From positions 1-33,972 of IMG/VR virus record IMGVR_UViG_3300030090_000144: a DNA stretch of 33,972 bases, one strand, 5' to 3'. Shown here piece after piece: positions 3,778-27,886 of this stretch; position 1 is the first letter of the stretch, and the number at the start of each line of letters is the position of its first letter. Source of the stretch: a virus. The notes beneath the pieces were generated by a model. It saw only the letters and a list, made by a program, of their open reading frames with translations, did no database searches and had not been told where the DNA came from. The position numbers and the translations under genes are program-made.

Positions 3778-6700
3778 TGTGTTCCTCTTCTTCTCTGTGC
3801 TATGGCTATATCAGTAGGGTTTAATCCTAATGAAAAGGCATTAGCTGGATTCGTAACATCTATGTTTCCTAATGTTGTGCCAGATACTGGTTCTGGTATC
3901 TTTAATTGACTCAAAGGTACATTAGGTCTAGTTGGTTGTAAGAATGTAGATAGATTGCCAGTCTTTAAATCTTCAGCCTTTATGTCTGGCAACTTAACAT
4001 TTAAACCTTGACTCTCAAGAAATGCTTGAGCTTGACTCTCTGCATTATCAATAGTTTCTTGCATTGTTTGTCCTATTCCAATGCTAAGAGCTTTACCTAT
4101 AATAGATCCATATTCTCTTGCTCTTTCAGCAGGTTTTTTAAATTGATCTAAAACAACACCATTATATTGTTTTAGTATGTCATCATAATATCCATTAGAT
4201 AAAAGCCTGTTACCTAAAATACTAAATTTCACAAGTTTACCTACGTTTTGGAATGGAGAAGCAGCTATATTAGCGGCAACGAGATCACCACCTTCAGCAG
4301 TTCTGGCATTAAATTTAAGTATCCTACCAAAGTTTTTCATATTGTTACCAACTTCTTTACCAAAAACTGTAACAAGTTTATTGTCTTTGGAAGCCGCTAG
4401 TAGTCTGTCAGCAAAAGCATTTAGAGATTTGCCATCAGTCATTATAGATTCACCAAAATCATCTATAATACTGTTAATGTAATAGCTCCTTATTTTGTTT
4501 AAGGCTTGCTCACCATTTTGACCTTGTTTCTTAAAATACTCTATTACTGGTTTTATCTGTGAGTTTTTAGTTGTTTTTTGCACAAGAAAACGAGCTGCCT
4601 CAACTGGATCTAAATCACCAGTATCATCAGCCAACTTTCTAAGAACTACATTTTTTTGATTAGCGGCTAATCTTTTTTGTGTGGTTGCTAATGCTTCTAA
4701 CTTTCTAACGAGTAAAGCATTCGATGTTGTATCACCTTTGATATTTCTAAACTGTCTAAGAACTTGTGGAGATTCCAAACCTGTAATTTTCACAGATCCT
4801 ATTTCATCTGCTAGTTTAAGTATCTGATCTGTTTCTGCTCCGAACAATTCTTTAGCAGTCGTTCCTAAATTTTTAATTGATTGTGCAAATTTCTCAGAAT
4901 TAAAGTTTTTAACATTTGTAAAATTACTTATTCCAGATTTTTTAAGAGCTTCTTCTAATGTATGATTGGCGGCTCTTGCGACAAATTCATCAGCTAATTG
5001 CGCTCCACCACCATATTCTGTGATAAATTTTCTAGCTTGTTGAATAAATTCAGGATTATTATTTTTTACGACATTCTCATAAATATCAATATTTTGTGGT
5101 ATTTCATCAACAATGTCGCCAGGTTGTCTTTTATATTTTTCTAAATTTTTAATTGTTTTTGAAGCATTTAAATCTTCAATAAGTTTTCTTCCTAAGAAAA
5201 ATTTTGTTTGTGCATTTTTTATTGCTTTTCCAGCATTTTTAAATTTTTGAGCGTCAGCAGGAGATAATGATTCTCTTGCTATTATCTCTCTAAATGTTGC
5301 ACTATTTTCATCACCCATTTCTTTAAAAATTTTGTCAACTTGATCAAGTAATCCATCACCATCTTTTGTAACAAGTTCTCCACGAACTGTTTTTGAAGTA
5401 GGTGGTAATTCCATTCTTATATCACTTAATGTTTTTCTTAAATTGTATATCTGATTAAAAGAAGCTTTTTTGTTGAACGCCGCTCCTCCAACATTTTCTA
5501 CGGCTGCGATAATTTGTGATATACTTTTTCCGTCTTTTGTGCCAGCGGCTATTGAAGATCCATAGTCTCTTTTAAGTCTTTTAATTGTGTCTTTAAATCT
5601 ACCAGTAGTTATAAAAGCATCACCACCTAAACTTGAATTTCTTAACACTTTATCAACTGCAGCAAATTTACCTGAAATCATTTCATCAAAATTGATAGAT
5701 GCGTCTCTAATAATTTCAAATAAATCACTCTCAACATTTGAATTTCTAACTCCAGCTTGTTTAAAAGCATTTACAGAATCTTCTAAATGTTTAACGACTG
5801 CACCTGATAATTGTTCTTCTACATTTAAAAGTTTAGTATTGTTTTCAACCATGCCATCTTTAAGTATTTGTCCTACATCTGCATCAATAACGTCATCTGT
5901 AACACCATACTTTTGTTTATAAGCATCAAGTAATGTTTTAATTTGATCATTGTTGTTTTTCAATCGATCAGATGTTTTAAATATTTTTTCACCAATCGCT
6001 TGTATTCTAGCTACAAGTGATGGTGCTTTTATTGCTGATAGAGTTGGTCTTACACCAAATCCACCACGAACAACTGTTCCGTCTGGCTTTGTCACAACGC
6101 GACTTGTGGCAGCTATTTGTTCATCAGCAGATAATTTTGCAAAATCTTTTGGCTTAATTATATTACCAGCTTCATCAATAGGTTCTGATATAGATTGTCC
6201 TGCTGTGGTTGCTTCTTTAGAAGTTAATCCCTTGCCAGGTGTAACTCCTCTTCGTGCAAATCTAAAAGCTGCTACTGCTCCACCAAGCAATCCTTCACCT
6301 ACAAATCCGTAAGCAAATTCTCTACCTATGTCTTTAGCTATCTCTTCTCCTGATTGTTTTGATACACCAGCTAAAGCTTCAACACCTTCTTCAATAGCTT
6401 GTCCACTACCAGCTCCTACTCCAGCACCAATGGCTGCACCAAGAACAGGTATTGGTATCAACAGTTGACCTGCTATTGCTCCACCTATACCAGTTATTAG
6501 TTCTGGTGCTATACCAGATAAATCTGAGAAATCGTAACGACTGAATCCTTCTTCATCTATGAGTATATTTTTATCTGTCTCTTGTCCAAATTTTGAAGCT
6601 CCAGTTGGAGTTAGAGCTAATCTACCTCTGTTGTCTCTAGTAAAATCATCATCTGACAAATCAAACTTTCTTAATATAGCCTCTTCTTCTTCTTTTGTTT

Positions 6701-6944
6701 CAGCTACTCCGAGTGCAGCTCTCAGTGCATTGTTCTTAATTCCTGTTTCGACATCGAACAATTGTTTGTTTTTTTCTGGTGATGGCTCAGTTGTTTGTGC
6801 TGCTACTTCTTCAGCTTTTTTTGATTCAGCAAGTTTCTGTTGCACTATCTGATTAATAGCAACCTGTTCTTCTTCGGTAGGCTCATTACCTTCAATCTCA
6901 AAATTAAAGCTTTCATTAGGTAAATTTATTTTTATCTTTGCCAT
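3774..6944 (-). CDS. Large internal virion (DNA ejection) protein candidate
   Basis: 1056 residues, the largest gene here. The N-terminus is acidic and helical; residues 145-183 and 212-227 are glycine-zipper/hydrophobic stretches (GIGGAIAG, GAAIGAGVGAGSGQ) able to insert into a membrane, and the remaining 800 residues are charged and helical. This architecture, and the place after the tail genes, fits podovirus ejection proteins that leave the virion with the DNA and form a conduit across the cell envelope. No lytic transglycosylase motif was recognised. The start shares one base with the stop of the 612-residue gene (TAATG). Function is inferred from architecture and order. Confidence 0.65.
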   Translation of the reverse strand: MAKIKINLPNESFNFEIEGNEPTEEEQVAINQIVQQKLAESKKAEEVAAQTTEPSPEKNKQLFDVETGIKNNALRAALGVAETKEEEEAILRKFDLSDDDFTRDNRGRLALTPTGASKFGQETDKNILIDEEGFSRYDFSDLSGIAPELITGIGGAIAGQLLIPIPVLGAAIGAGVGAGSGQAIEEGVEALAGVSKQSGEEIAKDIGREFAYGFVGEGLLGGAVAAFRFARRGVTPGKGLTSKEATTAGQSISEPIDEAGNIIKPKDFAKLSADEQIAATSRVVTKPDGTVVRGGFGVRPTLSAIKAPSLVARIQAIGEKIFKTSDRLKNNNDQIKTLLDAYKQKYGVTDDVIDADVGQILKDGMVENNTKLLNVEEQLSGAVVKHLEDSVNAFKQAGVRNSNVESDLFEIIRDASINFDEMISGKFAAVDKVLRNSSLGGDAFITTGRFKDTIKRLKRDYGSSIAAGTKDGKSISQIIAAVENVGGAAFNKKASFNQIYNLRKTLSDIRMELPPTSKTVRGELVTKDGDGLLDQVDKIFKEMGDENSATFREIIARESLSPADAQKFKNAGKAIKNAQTKFFLGRKLIEDLNASKTIKNLEKYKRQPGDIVDEIPQNIDIYENVVKNNNPEFIQQARKFITEYGGGAQLADEFVARAANHTLEEALKKSGISNFTNVKNFNSEKFAQSIKNLGTTAKELFGAETDQILKLADEIGSVKITGLESPQVLRQFRNIKGDTTSNALLVRKLEALATTQKRLAANQKNVVLRKLADDTGDLDPVEAARFLVQKTTKNSQIKPVIEYFKKQGQNGEQALNKIRSYYINSIIDDFGESIMTDGKSLNAFADRLLAASKDNKLVTVFGKEVGNNMKNFGRILKFNARTAEGGDLVAANIAASPFQNVGKLVKFSILGNRLLSNGYYDDILKQYNGVVLDQFKKPAERAREYGSIIGKALSIGIGQTMQETIDNAESQAQAFLESQGLNVKLPDIKAEDLKTGNLSTFLQPTRPNVPLSQLKIPEPVSGTTLGNIDVTNPANAFSLGLNPTDIAIAQRRRGTQ

Positions 6945-13465: not shown

Positions 13466-16111
13466 CTATCTTGCGTTTGCATACTTAAAAGGTTGTTCGG
13501 CAAATGCCATGTATATAAAATCACCCCCAGCAGGATGATCGTGATATCCAGAAAATTGTTTGCATTTAAAACCATTTGCATAAAAATCTATACTATAAGG
13601 TGTTTGTTCAGTGCCGTATGAATTAGCTCTTAATACTTTATGAGTTGGATTGTCTGGATCTCTTGCTCTATCACGAATTGTCCACTCACCACTACCAGTA
13701 TATTTAATCATAAGCCATGCTGGTCTAAATCCTGTAAAAACAAAAGTACCATCTTCATCATCACTTCCTCCTCCACTACCACTTCTAGCGTTATATCCAC
13801 CAAACTTTGAAAATCCATCTATCTCAGCAAAACAATACGCAACAAAATCTTTAGAAGCAGTACTAATATTCCCTGCATCATCAGTACATAGTTGTATTGC
13901 TGTCGTTGTTGGCTCTGAATCAAAAACTGTTGAATTAGTAAACACAGAAGAGTTTTCTTCTAATTTTAAAAATTTATTATCATTAAAAGCATTTGCTGAC
14001 AACCCTTGATGACCTACTATCCATTCTGTACTATTATCAGTTCTTTGTTTTATTATAATCCAAGCTGGTTTTTTACCTAAACCATGAGCTATAGTTGTCG
14101 CTGCACTTTGACCAGTGTATGTTACAATACTAAATCCTGCTGTTGTATTAGCTTGTATTACACTATCTAAGTTACCAATACTCGTTGAACTTGCATCATT
14201 CGTAGTGGTTGTGCCACCATTTGCTTTCCAACACCAAGCAACATAAGTTTTATTAAGAACATTATGATTTGTAGATGTTCCTAATCTAAATCCATCTGAA
14301 TTAAATGCTTTTATACCTGCTGTATCATTTGATTCTTGACCATCAAGATCTGAAAATAAATCCTTACCTACACCTCTTGATGAATCTGTTAATGTGTTAC
14401 GCACATTTTCAGTTCTACTTTTTTTCCAAACCCAATCTGGTTGAAAACTCAAACCTGATATGTCTTCATTATCATTACCAGTGCCAGTATAAAGAAGAAC
14501 ATCAAAATGGTCTTTTGGTTCTATTATATCTGGGTCAACCATGTTGCTTGAGCATAATGCAAGACAGTTTGTTGGCACATCAAATAAAAACTTACCTTTG
14601 CCATTTGCATCATTTTTGTCTGTTCCTGGTGCAGTTTCATTCCCATCAAATGTTGGATCTTGACCAAAATTAAAATGCACTGCTGATGCGGCATAACCAG
14701 CATATGGTTGCCACTTATAATTAGTCAAATCAAGTGTCATTATAGGATTATCACCAGTTGAAGGATTACCAGTATTACCCGCTGCGTTTTTTAGATATGT
14801 TCCTTCTCTGTGCATAAAAACTTTACCATCAGATAAAATTGCCATTCCCCCTACATCACCTGCACTAAAAACAGTATTTCCACTTGTTAGATCATCTGAT
14901 GCACCAACTTGATTTGTAGTATGCACAAAATAATTTGCTGCAACTTGAAGCATTGCTTTTCGTGGAAATTGATAACTAGCCACTCCTGCACCATTAGCAG
15001 AGTTATTAGCGAAACTACTTGTTGCAAGAAGACCAACATAAAGTCTACTTGCATCTATAGTGACACATCTAAATTCAAAATATACACCACCCTCTGATGC
15101 AACTTCATTTATTGTATGAGTACCAATATGATGTGTTTGGTTACTAGTGCTACCATTAGTAGTAGCTAATAAATTAGCATTAGTAGTAGTACCAACCACA
15201 TCAGCAGTTTGTCCATATCTTCTATCTTCAGCGTTTATTGTGCATACATTGTTTTCAGGACAATCAAAATTATTGCAGTCAGATGCTAATATATTGTTTG
15301 ATGTCCAATGATTATTATTACCACTGCTATCTGCACCTACTGTTGATGATGATCCACTTCCAACACTTTCATTATCAAACTTCAAATGGTAACCCTCATT
15401 ACCATGAGAACCAGTATAAGCCTTTGGAATCCAAATACCTTTGTTTGTTTCGCCAAAAGAATTTATATTAAAAGAGGTGTTTGCCGTTCCACTTGTATCA
15501 GAAAAAAATGATAACCCATCAACTGAATGAAACTCTGCTAAACAACCATTGATTCTGTACGCTGAGTTTAGTGATGCTTGATAGTCACCTATTCTTTCTA
15601 CTGTAGTTCCTGGACTTGTGTTATAAAAGTTCATTGCTAGTTGAGCGTTTTGACTAGGGTAAGTAGTAGTGTCATACTCAGTTTCTCTTTCGCCATTTAC
15701 ATAAACTATTATTCTATCTGCGGCAGTTCCTTGTGTTGTGTCGATTGCAACTACAAAATGATACCAAGCAGTTGGATCTCTAAACTTTCTTGTGGTAATA
15801 ACATTATGAGTTGTTGCATCATCTACAACACCTTGTATTTGTATCCGATGACTAGATAGAGCTATCACAATAGTATCAGCATAAGGTCCGTTATCACCTT
15901 TTGAGTAAAAATAGTGATTACCACTATCTCCTTGTAAATCAAAAAATTTTACCCACCATGACCAAACATTTTTTTGTCTGTCACCCCCTGAACTTCCTAT
16001 AGTTCTGTTTAAAGTAGCATCTGAACCATTCATTCTAAGTGAGTTTTGAACAACACCTTTGTATACCCCTGAACTTACCTCTCCTGCACCATTTGCTTTT
16101 ATTAAACTCAT
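13466..16111 (-). CDS. Large tail fibre/receptor-binding protein (LamG-like, SPRY-like, triple C-terminal repeat)
   Basis: 881 residues. Residues 45-205 resemble a LamG/concanavalin-like jelly roll (WSWWVKFF, WYHFVVAIDT, IIVYVNGERE). About 335-485 resemble a SPRY-like beta sandwich (GGVYFEFRC, YVGLLA, DVGGMAILSDGKVFM). The C-terminus holds three degenerate copies of a ~100-residue unit: 536-629, 659-766 and 786-873, each with a Y/F-TG opening, a P-x-W segment and an aromatic closing strand (YVAWCWKA, FVAYCFAE, FIYMAFAE). This last unit matches what I know as DUF7483 in marine phages. Sugar-binding folds plus position beside the fibre chaperone candidate suggest host receptor binding. ATG with AGGAA upstream. 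Confidence 0.75.
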   Translation of the reverse strand: MSLIKANGAGEVSSGVYKGVVQNSLRMNGSDATLNRTIGSSGGDRQKNVWSWWVKFFDLQGDSGNHYFYSKGDNGPYADTIVIALSSHRIQIQGVVDDATTHNVITTRKFRDPTAWYHFVVAIDTTQGTAADRIIVYVNGERETEYDTTTYPSQNAQLAMNFYNTSPGTTVERIGDYQASLNSAYRINGCLAEFHSVDGLSFFSDTSGTANTSFNINSFGETNKGIWIPKAYTGSHGNEGYHLKFDNESVGSGSSSTVGADSSGNNNHWTSNNILASDCNNFDCPENNVCTINAEDRRYGQTADVVGTTTNANLLATTNGSTSNQTHHIGTHTINEVASEGGVYFEFRCVTIDASRLYVGLLATSSFANNSANGAGVASYQFPRKAMLQVAANYFVHTTNQVGASDDLTSGNTVFSAGDVGGMAILSDGKVFMHREGTYLKNAAGNTGNPSTGDNPIMTLDLTNYKWQPYAGYAASAVHFNFGQDPTFDGNETAPGTDKNDANGKGKFLFDVPTNCLALCSSNMVDPDIIEPKDHFDVLLYTGTGNDNEDISGLSFQPDWVWKKSRTENVRNTLTDSSRGVGKDLFSDLDGQESNDTAGIKAFNSDGFRLGTSTNHNVLNKTYVAWCWKANGGTTTTNDASSTSIGNLDSVIQANTTAGFSIVTYTGQSAATTIAHGLGKKPAWIIIKQRTDNSTEWIVGHQGLSANAFNDNKFLKLEENSSVFTNSTVFDSEPTTTAIQLCTDDAGNISTASKDFVAYCFAEIDGFSKFGGYNARSGSGGGSDDEDGTFVFTGFRPAWLMIKYTGSGEWTIRDRARDPDNPTHKVLRANSYGTEQTPYSIDFYANGFKCKQFSGYHDHPAGGDFIYMAFAEQPFKYANAR

Positions 16112-16120
16112 ATTAAGTTC

Positions 16121-17419
16121 CTACGTTAGTGCTGCCGATGCTGATACCAGAATAGTATCATTACCACTGGCTGCCGTTACATAATAAGCTAAATGATATG
16201 TACCACTTGTTGATAATGTTGTAAGCACATCTGCATTTATAGCTACAAGTGCATTTGCAGTAATTGTATGATTACTTGCATTTACAAATTTTATGTTACC
16301 AGATTGTCCAGCGGCAGCGTTACTAAATGTAATCTCTGTGTTACCACTGGTGGTGCAAGTAAAATCATTACCTACTGCTAAATCAAAACTACCATCGTTT
16401 TCTGCCGTAACTGTTACACCTACAGACCTACCAGTAACCTCAACATCGTTACTTACTGTAACCTTAGTTGATGCAGTAAGGTCTATTGTTGGTGCAGTAA
16501 TTTCTACCTCTGTATCTGCATCCACATCTAGTTGCCCGTCTGTGCTAGAGCTTACAGATAAAGCACTATCTCTGAACGTCAACTTAATTGCATCATTTAA
16601 TAGTAAAGCTGAGTTATGCACATGAGTTAAGTTTACATCATTGTTTTCACCAAAATTTAAAACTGCACTATCGGAAGCTAAACTTAAATCATCGCCAACT
16701 TTTAGATCGCCAGATACATCAACTCTCGTACTGGCATTTAAGTCTATTATTGCTTCACCATCTATTGTTAGCGTGCCATCAGCAGATTGTTGTATAAAAC
16801 TAGCAGCGTCACCAAATGTAAGTTTGTTTGTGCCATTTAACGTAAGTCCAGTTCCGTCTGTATGTGTTAATGTAGTATCGGTATCTGATCCAAAACCCAG
16901 CACTGCACTATCTGATTTAAGAGTTAAATCATCTCCAACAATTAAATCGTCATCTACTGTTAGATCAACGGCAGCTAGATGTGCAAAAGCATCCACTACA
17001 TTTGCTGAACTCCCACCTCCATCTAAATAAACTGCTTTAGTTGTGCCAGGTGTTATTGTTACATTACTTCCAGAACCTTGAGATATGATAATGTTTTGTG
17101 AACCACTTGTACCATTTTCTATAAAATGTAATCGTCTAATATCATTAGGTGATATTGTGATTGTACAAGCACTATCTAATGTTCCAGTGTATTTAACATA
17201 CATGGCTCTAACACCATCATTGCCACTACCACCATCACTAGCTCCATCTGCTATTACACTTGCATGAGTATCAGCGTTAGTCGTTATTGCCTCTGTACCA
17301 AAACCTAATGCTTCACCTATAAGTTCTAAGTTTGTATTAGTTTTAGTACCCCAGTTACCCGACTGTTCACCAGTAGCCATTTCTTCGAGTCTTAAATTGT
17401 TTACAAATGTACTTGGCAT
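16121..17419 (-). CDS. Tail fibre protein with two-copy 80-residue repeat
   Basis: 432 residues. The N-terminus (STFVNNLRLEEMATGEQSGNWGTKTNTN, 3-30) is the type that attaches phage fibres to the baseplate or tail. Residues 156-322 are two tandem copies of an 80-residue unit with VGDDL-x-L-x-SDSAVL...LTH...LTF, rich in Asp and short beta strands, as in a triple-stranded beta-helix shaft. The end (GNDTILVSASAALT) is Ala/Ser-rich. It probably forms a slender trimeric fibre. The start overlaps the previous stop by one base. Confidence 0.75.
   Translation of the reverse strand: MPSTFVNNLRLEEMATGEQSGNWGTKTNTNLELIGEALGFGTEAITTNADTHASVIADGASDGGSGNDGVRAMYVKYTGTLDSACTITISPNDIRRLHFIENGTSGSQNIIISQGSGSNVTITPGTTKAVYLDGGGSSANVVDAFAHLAAVDLTVDDDLIVGDDLTLKSDSAVLGFGSDTDTTLTHTDGTGLTLNGTNKLTFGDAASFIQQSADGTLTIDGEAIIDLNASTRVDVSGDLKVGDDLSLASDSAVLNFGENNDVNLTHVHNSALLLNDAIKLTFRDSALSVSSSTDGQLDVDADTEVEITAPTIDLTASTKVTVSNDVEVTGRSVGVTVTAENDGSFDLAVGNDFTCTTSGNTEITFSNAAAGQSGNIKFVNASNHTITANALVAINADVLTTLSTSGTYHLAYYVTAASGNDTILVSASAALT
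16454..16954 (-). repeat. Two tandem 80-residue repeats within the fibre gene
   Basis: Residues 156-235 and 236-322 of the fibre align with a period of 80: DDDLIVGDDLTLKSDSAVL versus SGDLKVGDDLSLASDSAVL, LTHTDGTGLTLN versus LTHVHNSALLLN, then KLTF. The copies differ at many residues, so the duplication is old. Confidence 0.7.
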
Positions 17420-18291
17420 TATGCGACCTCTCTCCAGTTAGCTGTTTGATTTGGAACTATTAAACTATATACTAGTTCCTCTCCAGTGCTACCAGTAGCA
17501 CTAACTCCCGTTAAAGATACCACAGTTTGTGGTACTGTGACAACATCCTTTATAGATGCTTGTAAAGCAGGTAGTCTATCATTATAATCAGAAGGAACTA
17601 CTTCCGCTGTTGTAACAACAACAACATCATCATTGTTAAATGCACTTGTCATTGCAAGGCTTACTGGAGTGTTAGCAGAAACTGGCGCACCAGTTGTTGT
17701 CTCTACATTAGGAATACCATGAGTATTTAAAGTTGCACCCATGAGAGCATGATTGCTACATTGATAAAATAATGTTGGCGCACCATCAGCTACAGTTATT
17801 TCTGTGTAAGCTCCAGCTTGTCCAGCAGTGCCATTTGTCGTTACACCAGTTGTATATTCACCACCAGTTTTGTCGGCAGCAGTGTAAATTCTTAATGGAT
17901 GTCCATCATTACTAGCATCACTTTGATCGAATCTATAAGTATTGCCTTCATATAAAGTTAAAACAACATCTGCTGATGCTGTTGAGCCACCAATAGCGTA
18001 CTTGTTAGTAGATCCTTGATTGTAATATGGATGATTTGATGGATTACCAGAAACAACAGTAACAGTATATGTTACTGTACTAGCACCCGTTTGACTTATA
18101 GCAGTGGTTGCAGAAACACCTGATACGTTAACAAAAATACCTGGCACACCAACTACAGAGTTAACAGAAGCTGTTGCCTTTATTTCTGGTAAAGAAGGTG
18201 GATCATAACGAATTACAACAGGAGTTTCTTCATTCCAAGCACCATCATTCCATGCACCTCTACCCCAACCTTGTAAGGTAGTGTTTGACAA
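17419..18291 (-). CDS. Tail/fibre-associated protein with cupredoxin-like domain
   Basis: 290 residues. I take TTG 18291 as start, with AGGA nine bases upstream and the previous stop two bases before it. The N-terminus GWGRGAWNDGAWN (8-20) is a repeated W-G motif typical of marine phage tail proteins. Residues 105-192 read as a cupredoxin: LYEGNTYRFDQSD, DGHP (H131), then FYQCSNHALMG with C178, H181 and M184. His plus Cys-x2-His-x2-Met is the type-1 copper ligand set with amicyanin-like spacing. Residues around 40-80 and 193-290 hold GVSAT and PVSAN beta modules. Probably a virion surface protein; copper binding is an inference from ligands. Confidence 0.7.
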   Translation of the reverse strand: MSNTTLQGWGRGAWNDGAWNEETPVVIRYDPPSLPEIKATASVNSVVGVPGIFVNVSGVSATTAISQTGASTVTYTVTVVSGNPSNHPYYNQGSTNKYAIGGSTASADVVLTLYEGNTYRFDQSDASNDGHPLRIYTAADKTGGEYTTGVTTNGTAGQAGAYTEITVADGAPTLFYQCSNHALMGATLNTHGIPNVETTTGAPVSANTPVSLAMTSAFNNDDVVVVTTAEVVPSDYNDRLPALQASIKDVVTVPQTVVSLTGVSATGSTGEELVYSLIVPNQTANWREVA

Positions 18292-18292
18292 T

Positions 18293-18745
18293 TTAGGCTA
18301 TCCTTATAATCGCATTACTTGCATCAGCAGTTGGAAACTGAATTGTGAATGTGCCTGATGTTGATGTTTTGTTTGATACAAAATCTAAAACACATACTGC
18401 TTTATTACTATTAGTATCGTTGTATATCAAAGCACCCATTGCAGTAATTGATGCAGTTGTGAAACTTAAGTCTGCAAAATCTGTAAAAGCAGTTGTTCCA
18501 GAAGTTGTTGGTGCAACTTTAGTTAAAGTACCACCTCCAGTAGCATAAGTGCCAGTTGAACCTACTTCACCAGTTGTTGTAAACGCAGTAGTCGTAGCTC
18601 CTAATGTTGCAGTAGTAGAAGATTTACCTCCACTGCCTTCTGCATATAACGCTAATTTAAAAGCATTTCCATTAGTTGCAAAATTGTGTGTACCTAACAT
18701 TAACTCTTGTTTAAATGCAGTACACATTGCTTGTGCTATAGCCAT
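18293..18745 (-). CDS. Conserved marine-phage virion protein, unknown role
   Basis: 150 residues. A short helical start (AIAQAMCTAFKQELMLGTHNF) is followed by Ser/Thr/Gly-rich beta strands and the end FTIQFPTADASNAIIRIA. I have the impression of a family common beside tail genes of marine podoviruses; no known domain is visible. It sits two bases before the cupredoxin-like gene and is almost certainly a structural component of the tail. Confidence 0.6.
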   Translation of the reverse strand: MAIAQAMCTAFKQELMLGTHNFATNGNAFKLALYAEGSGGKSSTTATLGATTTAFTTTGEVGSTGTYATGGGTLTKVAPTTSGTTAFTDFADLSFTTASITAMGALIYNDTNSNKAVCVLDFVSNKTSTSGTFTIQFPTADASNAIIRIA

Positions 18746-18746
18746 A

Positions 18747-19034
18747 TTAGAGTCTCCTTATATATTCAGCCGTTTCCTTTTGACCACTTGATCTCAAAGC
18801 TTGTATAATTGTAGCACGCTCTTCCTTTCTTGCCAAGATAAGATAATAATAGATTATTCCTTTGAGTTGTTCTCTAAATAATTTAGCTTGTTGCTTTACA
18901 TGAGGAGGTGCATTATCTGATATACTTGCAATTTTATCTACTGCTAAATCTGCAATCTGTTCATTTTTTAATCCTCCTTTTTGTGAAGTCATAACATTAA
19001 CACTGCCTATCTCTGATACATTTACACTAAACAT
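18747..19034 (-). CDS. Small helical protein of the tail block
   Basis: 95 residues with GAGGAG seven bases before the ATG. The first 25 residues are beta-like, the rest three helices rich in charged residues (NEQIADLAVDKIASISDNAPPHV, QAKLFREQLKGIIYYYLILA, ERATIIQALRSSGQKETAEYIRRL). It overlaps the upstream gene by eight bases. It looks like a conserved phage protein of unknown function; a small connector or chaperone is possible. Confidence 0.6.
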   Translation of the reverse strand: MFSVNVSEIGSVNVMTSQKGGLKNEQIADLAVDKIASISDNAPPHVKQQAKLFREQLKGIIYYYLILARKEERATIIQALRSSGQKETAEYIRRL

Positions 19035-19749
19035 TTTTTTTCTCCTCGTAAGTTACGCCAGGTATATCCTCTCTACCAACAATATTTGGTGTCGAGTCTA
19101 ATGGATCTGGTGGATCTAATTTTGATTTTCTTGTAATTAACATACTGCCATTCGTTGCAGTAGAAACTAAAGGATCTTCTAATCTGTGATATCCATAAAA
19201 TTTTTGATCATCTGGCACATTTGTATCTAATAAAGATGAATTATAAGCAATATTTAATTTAATACCTTTTGTTGCCGCTATAGCCAGCCAAAACTCACAA
19301 CAGCCTCTTCCAGCTTCAGCAAAAGATATATTTTTGTGTGTAAAATCCATTCCATATAAATGTAACTCTTTAACATCTATATATATTGCGTATGCTAGTG
19401 CATATGCCACTGTGTTATTAAGATAAGTAAAACCAACTTTTTTTAAAACGTCTTGTAATGGATATTCAATCACATCAGGACATCTTTTATCTAACGTGCA
19501 GGAAAAAATTGGCACGTTTAATTTAACTTGCAATCTTTCAGCCATAATATCTGTTTGCTTGCCAGCATTAGGTGTATCAAGAAATCTTGATGGTGGATCT
19601 AACATAAAACACTTATCGTGATAAATGATGGAAGACATTGAGTTAATAGCCCAAACTTCATCAAACTTCTCACTACGCATTCTACTTCTTATATATTCGA
19701 AACCACTGTTGCCGAGTGCAACAATAGCAACGCTTTTAATTTTTTTCAT
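19027..19749 (-). CDS. DUF115-like (Rossmann-type) enzyme candidate in the tail block
   Basis: 240 residues. It opens with a beta strand and glycine loop, SVAIVALGNSGFEYI (6-20), then EVWAIN, FMLDPP, and LHLYGMDFTH (near 130) followed by AEAGRGCCEFWLAIAATKGIKLNIA. This order, a glycine loop, an N-terminal Asp, a GMDF motif and an Arg-Gly/Cys-Glu helix, recalls DUF115/MptE-like and related sialyltransferase-like proteins. It has no signal of a structural protein, yet lies between head-tail adaptor and tail genes. A nucleotide-sugar or modification enzyme acting on virion or host glycans is possible; the family call is tentative. Confidence 0.5.
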   Translation of the reverse strand: MKKIKSVAIVALGNSGFEYIRSRMRSEKFDEVWAINSMSSIIYHDKCFMLDPPSRFLDTPNAGKQTDIMAERLQVKLNVPIFSCTLDKRCPDVIEYPLQDVLKKVGFTYLNNTVAYALAYAIYIDVKELHLYGMDFTHKNISFAEAGRGCCEFWLAIAATKGIKLNIAYNSSLLDTNVPDDQKFYGYHRLEDPLVSTATNGSMLITRKSKLDPPDPLDSTPNIVGREDIPGVTYEEKKNV

Positions 19750-20405: not shown

Positions 20406-20716
20406 GTTGTACTCACTGTAACTGTTCCAACAGACGCTGTTGCACTAAAACTTGTTAATAAAGATCCTATGTTTCCTAATCCAGTATTAGTGTAAACAAT
20501 AAATTTTTTATTGTCATCTTTTACATCTGGTCTTGCATCTCTAATAGCTTCAAGATCTGTTCTTATTCTTGGTGGAGTTAGTTGTGGATGTTTTTCTTCA
20601 TATTCATCATAACCAACTATGCTACCATTCCACTCTTTTCTCATATCTCTTATTCTGTAACGGAATCCAGAACGATCTGATATTCTATAAGCATATTTAC
20701 CTTTAGCAAAAGCCAT
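20402..20716 (-). CDS. Small neck/tail-region protein, zinc-less variant
   Basis: 104 residues. The start MAFAKGKYAYRISDRSGFRYRIRDMRKEWNG and KHPQLTPP belong to a phage protein family in which, as I remember it, some members carry CDRCGF and CPEC zinc ligands. Here the same places are S-D-R-S (13-16) and no CxxC remains, so no zinc ribbon can form. The last 13 residues, ATASVGTVTVSTT, are the same beta module found in the tail gene at 12324-12899. Located between the two adaptor-like genes with TAATG and ATGA overlaps; function unknown. Confidence 0.65.
   Translation of the reverse strand: MAFAKGKYAYRISDRSGFRYRIRDMRKEWNGSIVGYDEYEEKHPQLTPPRIRTDLEAIRDARPDVKDDNKKFIVYTNTGLGNIGSLLTSFSATASVGTVTVSTT
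20405..20443 (-). repeat. VGTVTV module copy at a gene end
   Basis: ATASVGTVTVSTT forms the C-terminus of the 104-residue protein. It matches ATASLGTVTVSTP at 12414-12452 in another gene, about 8 kb away, at most codons. See the split tail gene. Confidence 0.6.
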
Positions 20717-21384
20717 TATCCAACCTTATAATAATCTAACTTTGGTGTAATACTAAATGAGGATCTATCTCTGTCTTCACCTATAGCTCTTTCAAACTCC
20801 TCTTCGTATACACTTTTTAATAATTGTATTCTATCTGGCGCACGTTTCATAGCTATGTAATAAGCTAATCCAGCAGTGAGACATGGAAAAAATCTAAAAG
20901 GCACTTCAAGTGTATTCACTTGAGTATCAGCATCTTGCATTCTTGTTAAAGCATCATAAACTAAAACATCAGTACTATTCTCAGGTGTTGGATATAATTT
21001 TAAATTTGGTGTTATCTGTCTATCTAAAAAATATTGTGTTGCTCGACCTGTTGTTGATTTAGTTGGAATGTTTAAATAAGTGTCTCTACTTATTCTACTC
21101 ATACTAAAATCAGTGCCTGATCTTCTTACAACTACTGATAAAACATCAATTATATCAGTTCCTAAACTATATTCAGCAGTCCCTGAAGTAAGAGATTGTG
21201 TTCTCTGTTCAATAGTCCATTGGTTCAAGCCACGATTTGCCCACTCTGCCAACATAATGTTCATAGAACGTCTGGCTGTTTGCAAATCGTAACCTGTCCT
21301 AGCTTCTAAACCACATCTTTCAAAAGCCTCTTCAATGTACTCTGCAACATCTAATTCAAAATTATTTGAACTTGAAGTTGCCAT
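20716..21384 (-). CDS. Head-tail adaptor (P22 gp4/T7 gp11-like) candidate
   Basis: 222 residues. Helical start FELDVAEYIEEAFERCGLEARTG, then TARRSMNIMLAEWANRGLNQW (37-57), a signature of podovirus adaptor proteins that dock under the portal and begin the tail. The middle is a beta region (AEYSLGTDIIDVLSVVVRR) with NLKLYPTP, and the end is helical (PDRIQLLKSVYEEEFERAI). It starts one base from the end of the Met/Lys/Gly-rich small gene. Fits with 19761-20405 as a pair of connector proteins. Confidence 0.7.
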   Translation of the reverse strand: MATSSSNNFELDVAEYIEEAFERCGLEARTGYDLQTARRSMNIMLAEWANRGLNQWTIEQRTQSLTSGTAEYSLGTDIIDVLSVVVRRSGTDFSMSRISRDTYLNIPTKSTTGRATQYFLDRQITPNLKLYPTPENSTDVLVYDALTRMQDADTQVNTLEVPFRFFPCLTAGLAYYIAMKRAPDRIQLLKSVYEEEFERAIGEDRDRSSFSITPKLDYYKVG

Positions 21385-27409: not shown

Positions 27410-27886
27410 CTATACATATGAAATATCTGCTGGGTCAAGTATTGTTGCTATAATATTATCGTCATTTATAATTCTTAGCTCAAGACCATCCACTTTGAAC
27501 CTATTTCCAGCATATCTACCCATAAGCACCCAATTCTTCTCAGAACAGTATGCTCCATTTGGGAATTTATCAGAATCTTGATAAGCATCAGCACCTAGCT
27601 TAACAACGTAAGCTACAACTGTTGCAAAAGACTCACGATCTCTAGTTGCATCAGGAATAATTATTCCTCCCTTTGTCTTTTCAGACAAATAATATGGAAT
27701 TACAAGTATTCTATATCCTGTTGGTTGAGGTAATCTTTCTAATATAGATACATCTAGTTTAGATGGATCTTTAGAGTTTTTATTGGCTTCTTCTTTGTTA
27801 TCAAAAGCTTTTGATATGGCTTTTGGAGTTGGATTTACTGCTTTTTGTGCCAAAATCCGATCTGGCACATACAACTTTTTAGTCAT
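27410..27886 (-). CDS. GroES-like co-chaperonin (Cpn10)
   Basis: 158 residues. Residues 52-150 follow GroES: PTGYRILVIPYYLSEKTKGG, then IIIPDATRD (mobile-loop-like GGIII at 73-77), VVAYVVKLGADAY, NWVLMGRYAGN and a closing DGLELRIINDDNIIATI. The first 50 residues are an added charged extension not in bacterial GroES. In T4 the phage co-chaperonin gp31 adapts host GroEL for folding the capsid protein; the position beside the scaffold and shell genes suggests the same here. Ring assembly cannot be judged from sequence. Confidence 0.9.
   Translation of the reverse strand: MTKKLYVPDRILAQKAVNPTPKAISKAFDNKEEANKNSKDPSKLDVSILERLPQPTGYRILVIPYYLSEKTKGGIIIPDATRDRESFATVVAYVVKLGADAYQDSDKFPNGAYCSEKNWVLMGRYAGNRFKVDGLELRIINDDNIIATILDPADISYV

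Follow-up and report, generated by a model that had tools for sequence, protein, structure and literature searches.

Residues 70-192 of the protein encoded at 17419..18291 on the minus strand of the window (the whole analysed stretch of DNA, an IMG/VR virus record of 33,972 bases) are likely to be a cupredoxin-like module that binds copper and is displayed on the surface of marine phage virions. Computation shows that the ligands are present, that the fold is predicted, that the site is retained across deep divergence, and that the module occurs in different carriers. We consider it quite probable that the predicted site is occupied by copper and highly probable that the domain is exposed on the virion; the carrier appears to be a virion structural protein, judging from where its gene lies and from the naming of relatives as virion or tail proteins. 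In the open-access literature we found no earlier report of a phage cupredoxin, although one may have been published elsewhere.

The carrier protein and its predicted copper ligands

The carrier is a protein of 290 aa with a TTG start codon, preceded at a distance of 8 nt by AAGGAT, as read from the sequence. It contains a single Cys (178), four His residues (87, 131, 181 and 191) and, besides the start, two Met residues (184 and 214). The translation of the ORF confirmed the residues and positions on which the original prediction was built, with H131 in DGHP and the other three in FYQC(178)SNH(181)ALM(184)G. His131 (17899..17901) is the predicted N-terminal Cu ligand, Cys178 (17758..17760) the predicted Cu thiolate ligand, His181 (17749..17751) the predicted second His ligand and Met184 (17740..17742) the predicted axial ligand; these codons, like the parts of the carrier described below, lie on the minus strand. 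His87 (SNHPYYN; 18031..18033) is located outside the predicted site and is found in 28/28 clusters of close kin and in 20/54 divergent clusters.

The domain (17716..18084) is preceded by an N-terminal region (residues 1-69; 18085..18291) with a GWGRGxW motif and VTGVSATT-type repeats, which is variable (27-92% identity in kin), and followed by a C-terminal region (residues 193-290; 17422..17715) composed of variable repeats that lead into a conserved PNQxANWxEVA end. Conservation in close kin covers the domain and the final 35 residues of the protein, and the surrounding repeats drift. The protein gp68 of the pelagiphage HTVC027P (5919-6884 of locus L426) resembles the carrier in its gene position after a 150-aa protein, in three motifs of the GWG-x-W type, similar to the N-terminal GWGRGxW, and in the GWREVVA end, but it lacks the cupredoxin domain.

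The pattern H-x(25-70)-C-x2-H-x2-M is present in 498 of the 507 domain-bearing ORFs, compared to 3 of the 3173 unrelated ORFs (at least 100 aa) from the same loci, where the three instances are one redundant antisense ORF. Therefore, the ligand pattern is not due to chance.

Predicted fold and structural relatives

The domain was modelled by AlphaFold2 for residues 66-195 with alignment A2 (a domain alignment of 64 divergent relatives) as a beta-sandwich with pLDDT of 90.6 and pTM of 0.85, while the model of the full-length carrier is confident over the cupredoxin-like domain only. The model reproduces the beta-rich region postulated from the sequence, with nine strands between residues 72 and 191; the extent of about 90 residues ascribed to it fits the high-confidence core, but not the whole domain, which covers approximately residues 70-192. 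Cupredoxins have a His before a strand, a Cys ending the penultimate strand, and a His and a Met in the loop before the last strand. In the domain model, His131 directly precedes strand 133-136, the penultimate strand (174-178) terminates in Cys178, and the loop ahead of the last strand (186-191) holds His181 and Met184, so the predicted strand placement of the four residues is the cupredoxin arrangement. The domain thus exhibits the order typical of cupredoxins, i.e. His followed by Cys-(x)n-His-(x)n-Met/Gln within the loop that leads to the last strand, and it is predicted to adopt the Greek-key beta-sandwich fold of this superfamily.

The comparison with known folds, originally proposed as a check, came out in favour of a cupredoxin: the best 50 matches of the modelled domain in the PDB according to Foldseek are mostly cupredoxins or multicopper proteins, with probability mostly in the range of 0.9-1.0. 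Matches in the PDB comprise AcoP, amicyanin, the Nitrosopumilus purple cupredoxin, laccases, nitrite reductase, nitrosocyanin and pseudoazurin, as well as pseudoazurin and nitrite reductase with engineered amicyanin loops and azurin with a CAAHAAM loop. Their scores are moderate, with the best E-values of about 0.001-0.003, no PDB match with E below 0.001, and TM of about 0.4-0.6 (by target up to 0.63). AcoP of Acidithiobacillus (7z3b, 7z3i) is among the best structural matches by E-value, and the purple cupredoxin of Nitrosopumilus maritimus (5fc9) is among the best by target TM (0.63); however, both are cellular proteins with 11-17% sequence identity to the phage domain. Among viral models, Foldseek identified marine-phage tail fibres and virion proteins, and also pithovirus "beta-sandwich" proteins (A0A481Z6J5 and A0A481Z7Q7 in BFVD), which match the domain model with a target TM of 0.66-0.72.

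In amicyanin, the ligands of the loop are C92, H95 and M98, while plastocyanin and pseudoazurin have a longer spacing. The Cys-His-Met spacing of the phage domain (+3, +6) equals that of amicyanin, as stated in the original prediction, and the likeness to the Paracoccus protein extends to the predicted fold and the N-terminal His. In a profile alignment with three cupredoxins, which is weak (probability 17%), H131 falls on H53 of amicyanin and the Cys-His loops coincide. On the other hand, the identity to amicyanin in the structural alignment is about 17-20%, the segment between the first His and the Cys comprises 47 residues in the phage domain and 39 in amicyanin, the phage domain has no sequence-family match, and amicyanin is a periplasmic electron carrier, whereas the phage domain is a part of a virion-type protein.

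Searches of sequence families were negative for known cupredoxins. PF00127 (Copper-bind: plastocyanin, amicyanin, pseudoazurin) gave no match to the carrier even at E of 10, with positive controls, Pfam contained no family for the carrier protein, and the Pfam and NCBIfam matches of the 64 relatives were scattered and weak, with no cupredoxin family among them. PF25489 (At5g54830-like domain) is matched weakly by gp9-like proteins and by five members of A2 (best E 0.0012), but these matches are below the curated cut-off and the window protein has none. Searches of PDB sequences with the carrier and two alignments yielded one pseudoazurin below the threshold and otherwise noise. No cellular relative was revealed by two scans of the genomes of bacteria and archaea, and plasmids were likewise negative; since the genome scans used short, narrow peptide patterns, the domain may nonetheless have a cellular origin.

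Conservation and loss of the site

All four ligand residues are invariant in 28 clusters of close kin, and they are common to two sub-types of these kin that diverge strongly at residues 137-168. Scans with four divergent seeds added 320 contigs. In the divergent set obtained with an ordinary profile and clustered at 70%, 53 of 54 clusters possess the ligands, whose four columns rank within the six most conserved residues, alongside Y176 and F121.

When the ligand columns were masked in the homologue search to reduce circularity, 375 unique full copies from marine phage loci were found, of which 330 keep H, C and H, 35 lack all three, and 10 are mixed; because all four seeds were ligand-bearing, the natural share of ligand-less copies may exceed 10%. 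Eleven unique sequences, belonging to one cyanophage baseplate subgroup, possess Gln in place of the axial Met and retain H-C-H. Gln is a natural axial alternative in type-1 sites, as known from stellacyanin. The ligand-less copies are domains of the gp10-type baseplate proteins and PSS2 gp080, in which G116, Y119, F121, P172 and L174 are kept (Y119, F121 and P172 at 92-100%). We rejected the scenario in which each ligand-less copy represents an independent loss: a tree calculated without the ligand columns requires only three label changes, of which one stems from a false match (L142), leaving support for about two loss events. Free loss of the four residues in homologues, which had been named in advance as an argument against the copper site, is refuted by their fixation in close kin and by the nearly always joint retention or loss of H-C-H. 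In the homologous sequences, the ligands thus appear to be conserved in the manner expected of a type-1 copper site.

Genomic neighbourhood of the carrier gene

The portal and capsid proteins of the window are closest to those of pelagiphages HTVC027P and HTVC023P, phage 023Pt_psg01 and phage DSL-LC04, and its portal and adaptors are of the SU10 type. The carrier gene is located in the adaptor/tail-fibre block, in the order of two adaptors, a 150-aa protein (18293-18745), the carrier, a 432-aa protein (16121-17419) and an 881-aa protein, the last of which has matches among the PHROGs of virion structural proteins and tail fibres. Kin retain these neighbours, with matches to the 150-aa protein in 81 of the tested loci and to the 432-aa protein and one of the adaptors in 78 each.

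Other genes of the window deserve a brief comment. In most of the kin with adaptors of 94-99% identity, the 881-aa DUF7483 protein (13466-16111) reaches only 34-52%, and this pattern resembles that of a host-range gene. A 240-aa protein of the adaptor/tail block (19027-19749) is present in 75 kin loci, and a search for its family returned no match. A GroES-like (Cpn10) protein is encoded at 27410-27886; phage 023Pt_psg01 likewise has an annotated co-chaperonin GroES upstream of the head genes.

Distribution of the domain among marine phages

Sequence comparisons suggest that the domain is a mobile module, which recurs in tail, baseplate and adaptor proteins of many unrelated marine phages; the original prediction was blind to this wide spread and to the movement between virion proteins. 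The domain occurs in 347 phage records, whose names derive from Synechococcus, Prochlorococcus, Pelagibacter, Methylophilales or marine samples, and its carriers are annotated as tail fibre, baseplate wedge tail fibre connector or virion protein. In Fussvirus S30C28 it occupies residues 486-572 of a 622-residue frame, close to the C-terminus, in a protein that also possesses the T7 tail-fibre N-terminal domain, while in S-RIM2, P-RSM4 and S-SM1 it forms the end of gp9. The copy of 023Pt_psg01 is fused to the beginning of an adaptor homologous to the one encoded at 20716-21384 of the window. This 023Pt_psg01 ORF (4950-6047 of locus L085) thus has the domain at the N-terminus of an SU10-type head-tail adaptor, where the window has two separate genes.

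The domain of the window protein is homologous by sequence to those of the marine cyanophage tail fibre and of the T4-type proteins gp9 and gp10 (PHROGs 30742, 27200, 693, 677 and 32294), and the tail-fibre profile PHROG 30742 matches the carrier with E of 2.7e-34 over residues 48-188 only. The gp9 and tail-fibre copies keep the ligands, and gp10 has additional ligand-less copies. However, these cyanophage carriers differ from the window protein, and their PHROG-type annotation contains no description of copper binding. Tandem cupredoxin-like copies are found in gp10-like cyanophage baseplate proteins (L278, L273, L343 and other loci, and S-SM1 protein 104 in L429), with one copy bearing H-C-H-M, in some proteins one bearing H-C-H-Q, and the others ligand-less.

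Possible function and alternative explanations

The retention of the site, the replacement of Met by Gln, the joint loss of the ligands and the fold match together argue for a working type-1-like copper site, while the repeated transfer between exposed parts of the virion argues for a display role, and the combination of the two favours a copper-binding contact or stability module, in support of the original interpretation. We envisage that the cupredoxin-like beta-sandwich would bind one copper ion at a type-1-like site formed by H131, C178, H181 and M184. In the window, the domain would have entered a modular tail-region protein between its repeats, and elsewhere it would have been joined to tail fibres, to the baseplate proteins gp9 and gp10, or to the head-tail adaptor. 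On the outward-facing side of tail appendages, the copper-loaded domain could serve as a contact module, in which the metal would lock a stable binding surface and might itself join in docking to a component of the host envelope. A role in host contact or stability seems most likely, and we tentatively put forward this contact-module mechanism as the likeliest one.

It could be argued that the domain is a plain display or adhesion beta-sandwich, in which H, C, H and M are structural and the virion carries no metal. The fold indeed works without the site, because the ligand-less cousins in gp10 and PSS2 gp080 remain conserved, and Ig-like domains are also found, at lower rank, among the PDB matches. 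However, H, C and H are kept or lost jointly, Met is swapped to Gln, the core residues persist when the site goes, and a lone invariant Cys in an exposed protein would be hard to account for, which makes this explanation improbable. As to the identity of the metal, cupredoxins can bind Zn in vitro, and a site for zinc or iron could be either structural or used for iron piracy in the manner of the Ferrojan horse idea. A precedent for metal on marine phage tails exists in the HxH iron-binding sites proposed for the tail fibre of a marine phage (PMC11705849). Nonetheless, the HxH motif is absent from the window protein, its His-Cys-His-Met/Gln residues with the +3/+6 spacing are the set of type-1 copper, and the nearest folds are copper proteins, so we regard zinc or iron as very unlikely.

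Type-1 sites are usually electron carriers, and the domain might be redox-active on the virion, exchanging electrons with a partner on the host surface or in the periplasm, or removing superoxide or NO, during adsorption. Oxygen-producing cyanobacteria are among the hosts, but so are SAR11 and Methylophilales, and no obvious surface redox partner is common to them. Moreover, a partner enzyme was not recognised in the window, and the occurrence of the domain in fibres, baseplates and adaptors is more in keeping with contact or structure. Surface electron transfer or redox chemistry is therefore possible, but less likely than a contact module, and on the whole we find such a role distinctly unlikely. 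Some cyanophages carry petE (PMC3037559), and the gene could in principle be a host-derived auxiliary metabolic gene, such as one for plastocyanin, misread as a tail gene. This explanation has a negligible probability, given the lack of a match to PF00127, the embedding of the domain in a larger carrier, the position in the adaptor/tail block kept in kin, and the homologues, which are tail or virion proteins; a free-standing phage plastocyanin was rejected by both gene position and sequence.

Implications for marine phages

In cells, type-1 copper sites are known to serve as electron-transfer centres. A conserved type-1-like site carried by the tails of phages abundant in the ocean (T4-like cyanophages and phages of SAR11 and methylotrophs) would be a new use of the fold; copper would then enter the models of phage adsorption and of marine metal cycling, and a domain currently annotated merely as a tail fibre or hypothetical protein would be accounted for. 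The copper-site interpretation is directly testable on cultured phages. A much broader proposition, which we regard as rather doubtful, is that in several unrelated lineages of marine phages the fibres, baseplates and adaptors expose cupredoxins loaded with copper, which would be used to recognise or enter the host. If true, there would be a copper counterpart of the Ferrojan horse idea, with virions constituting a pool of organically bound copper in seawater.
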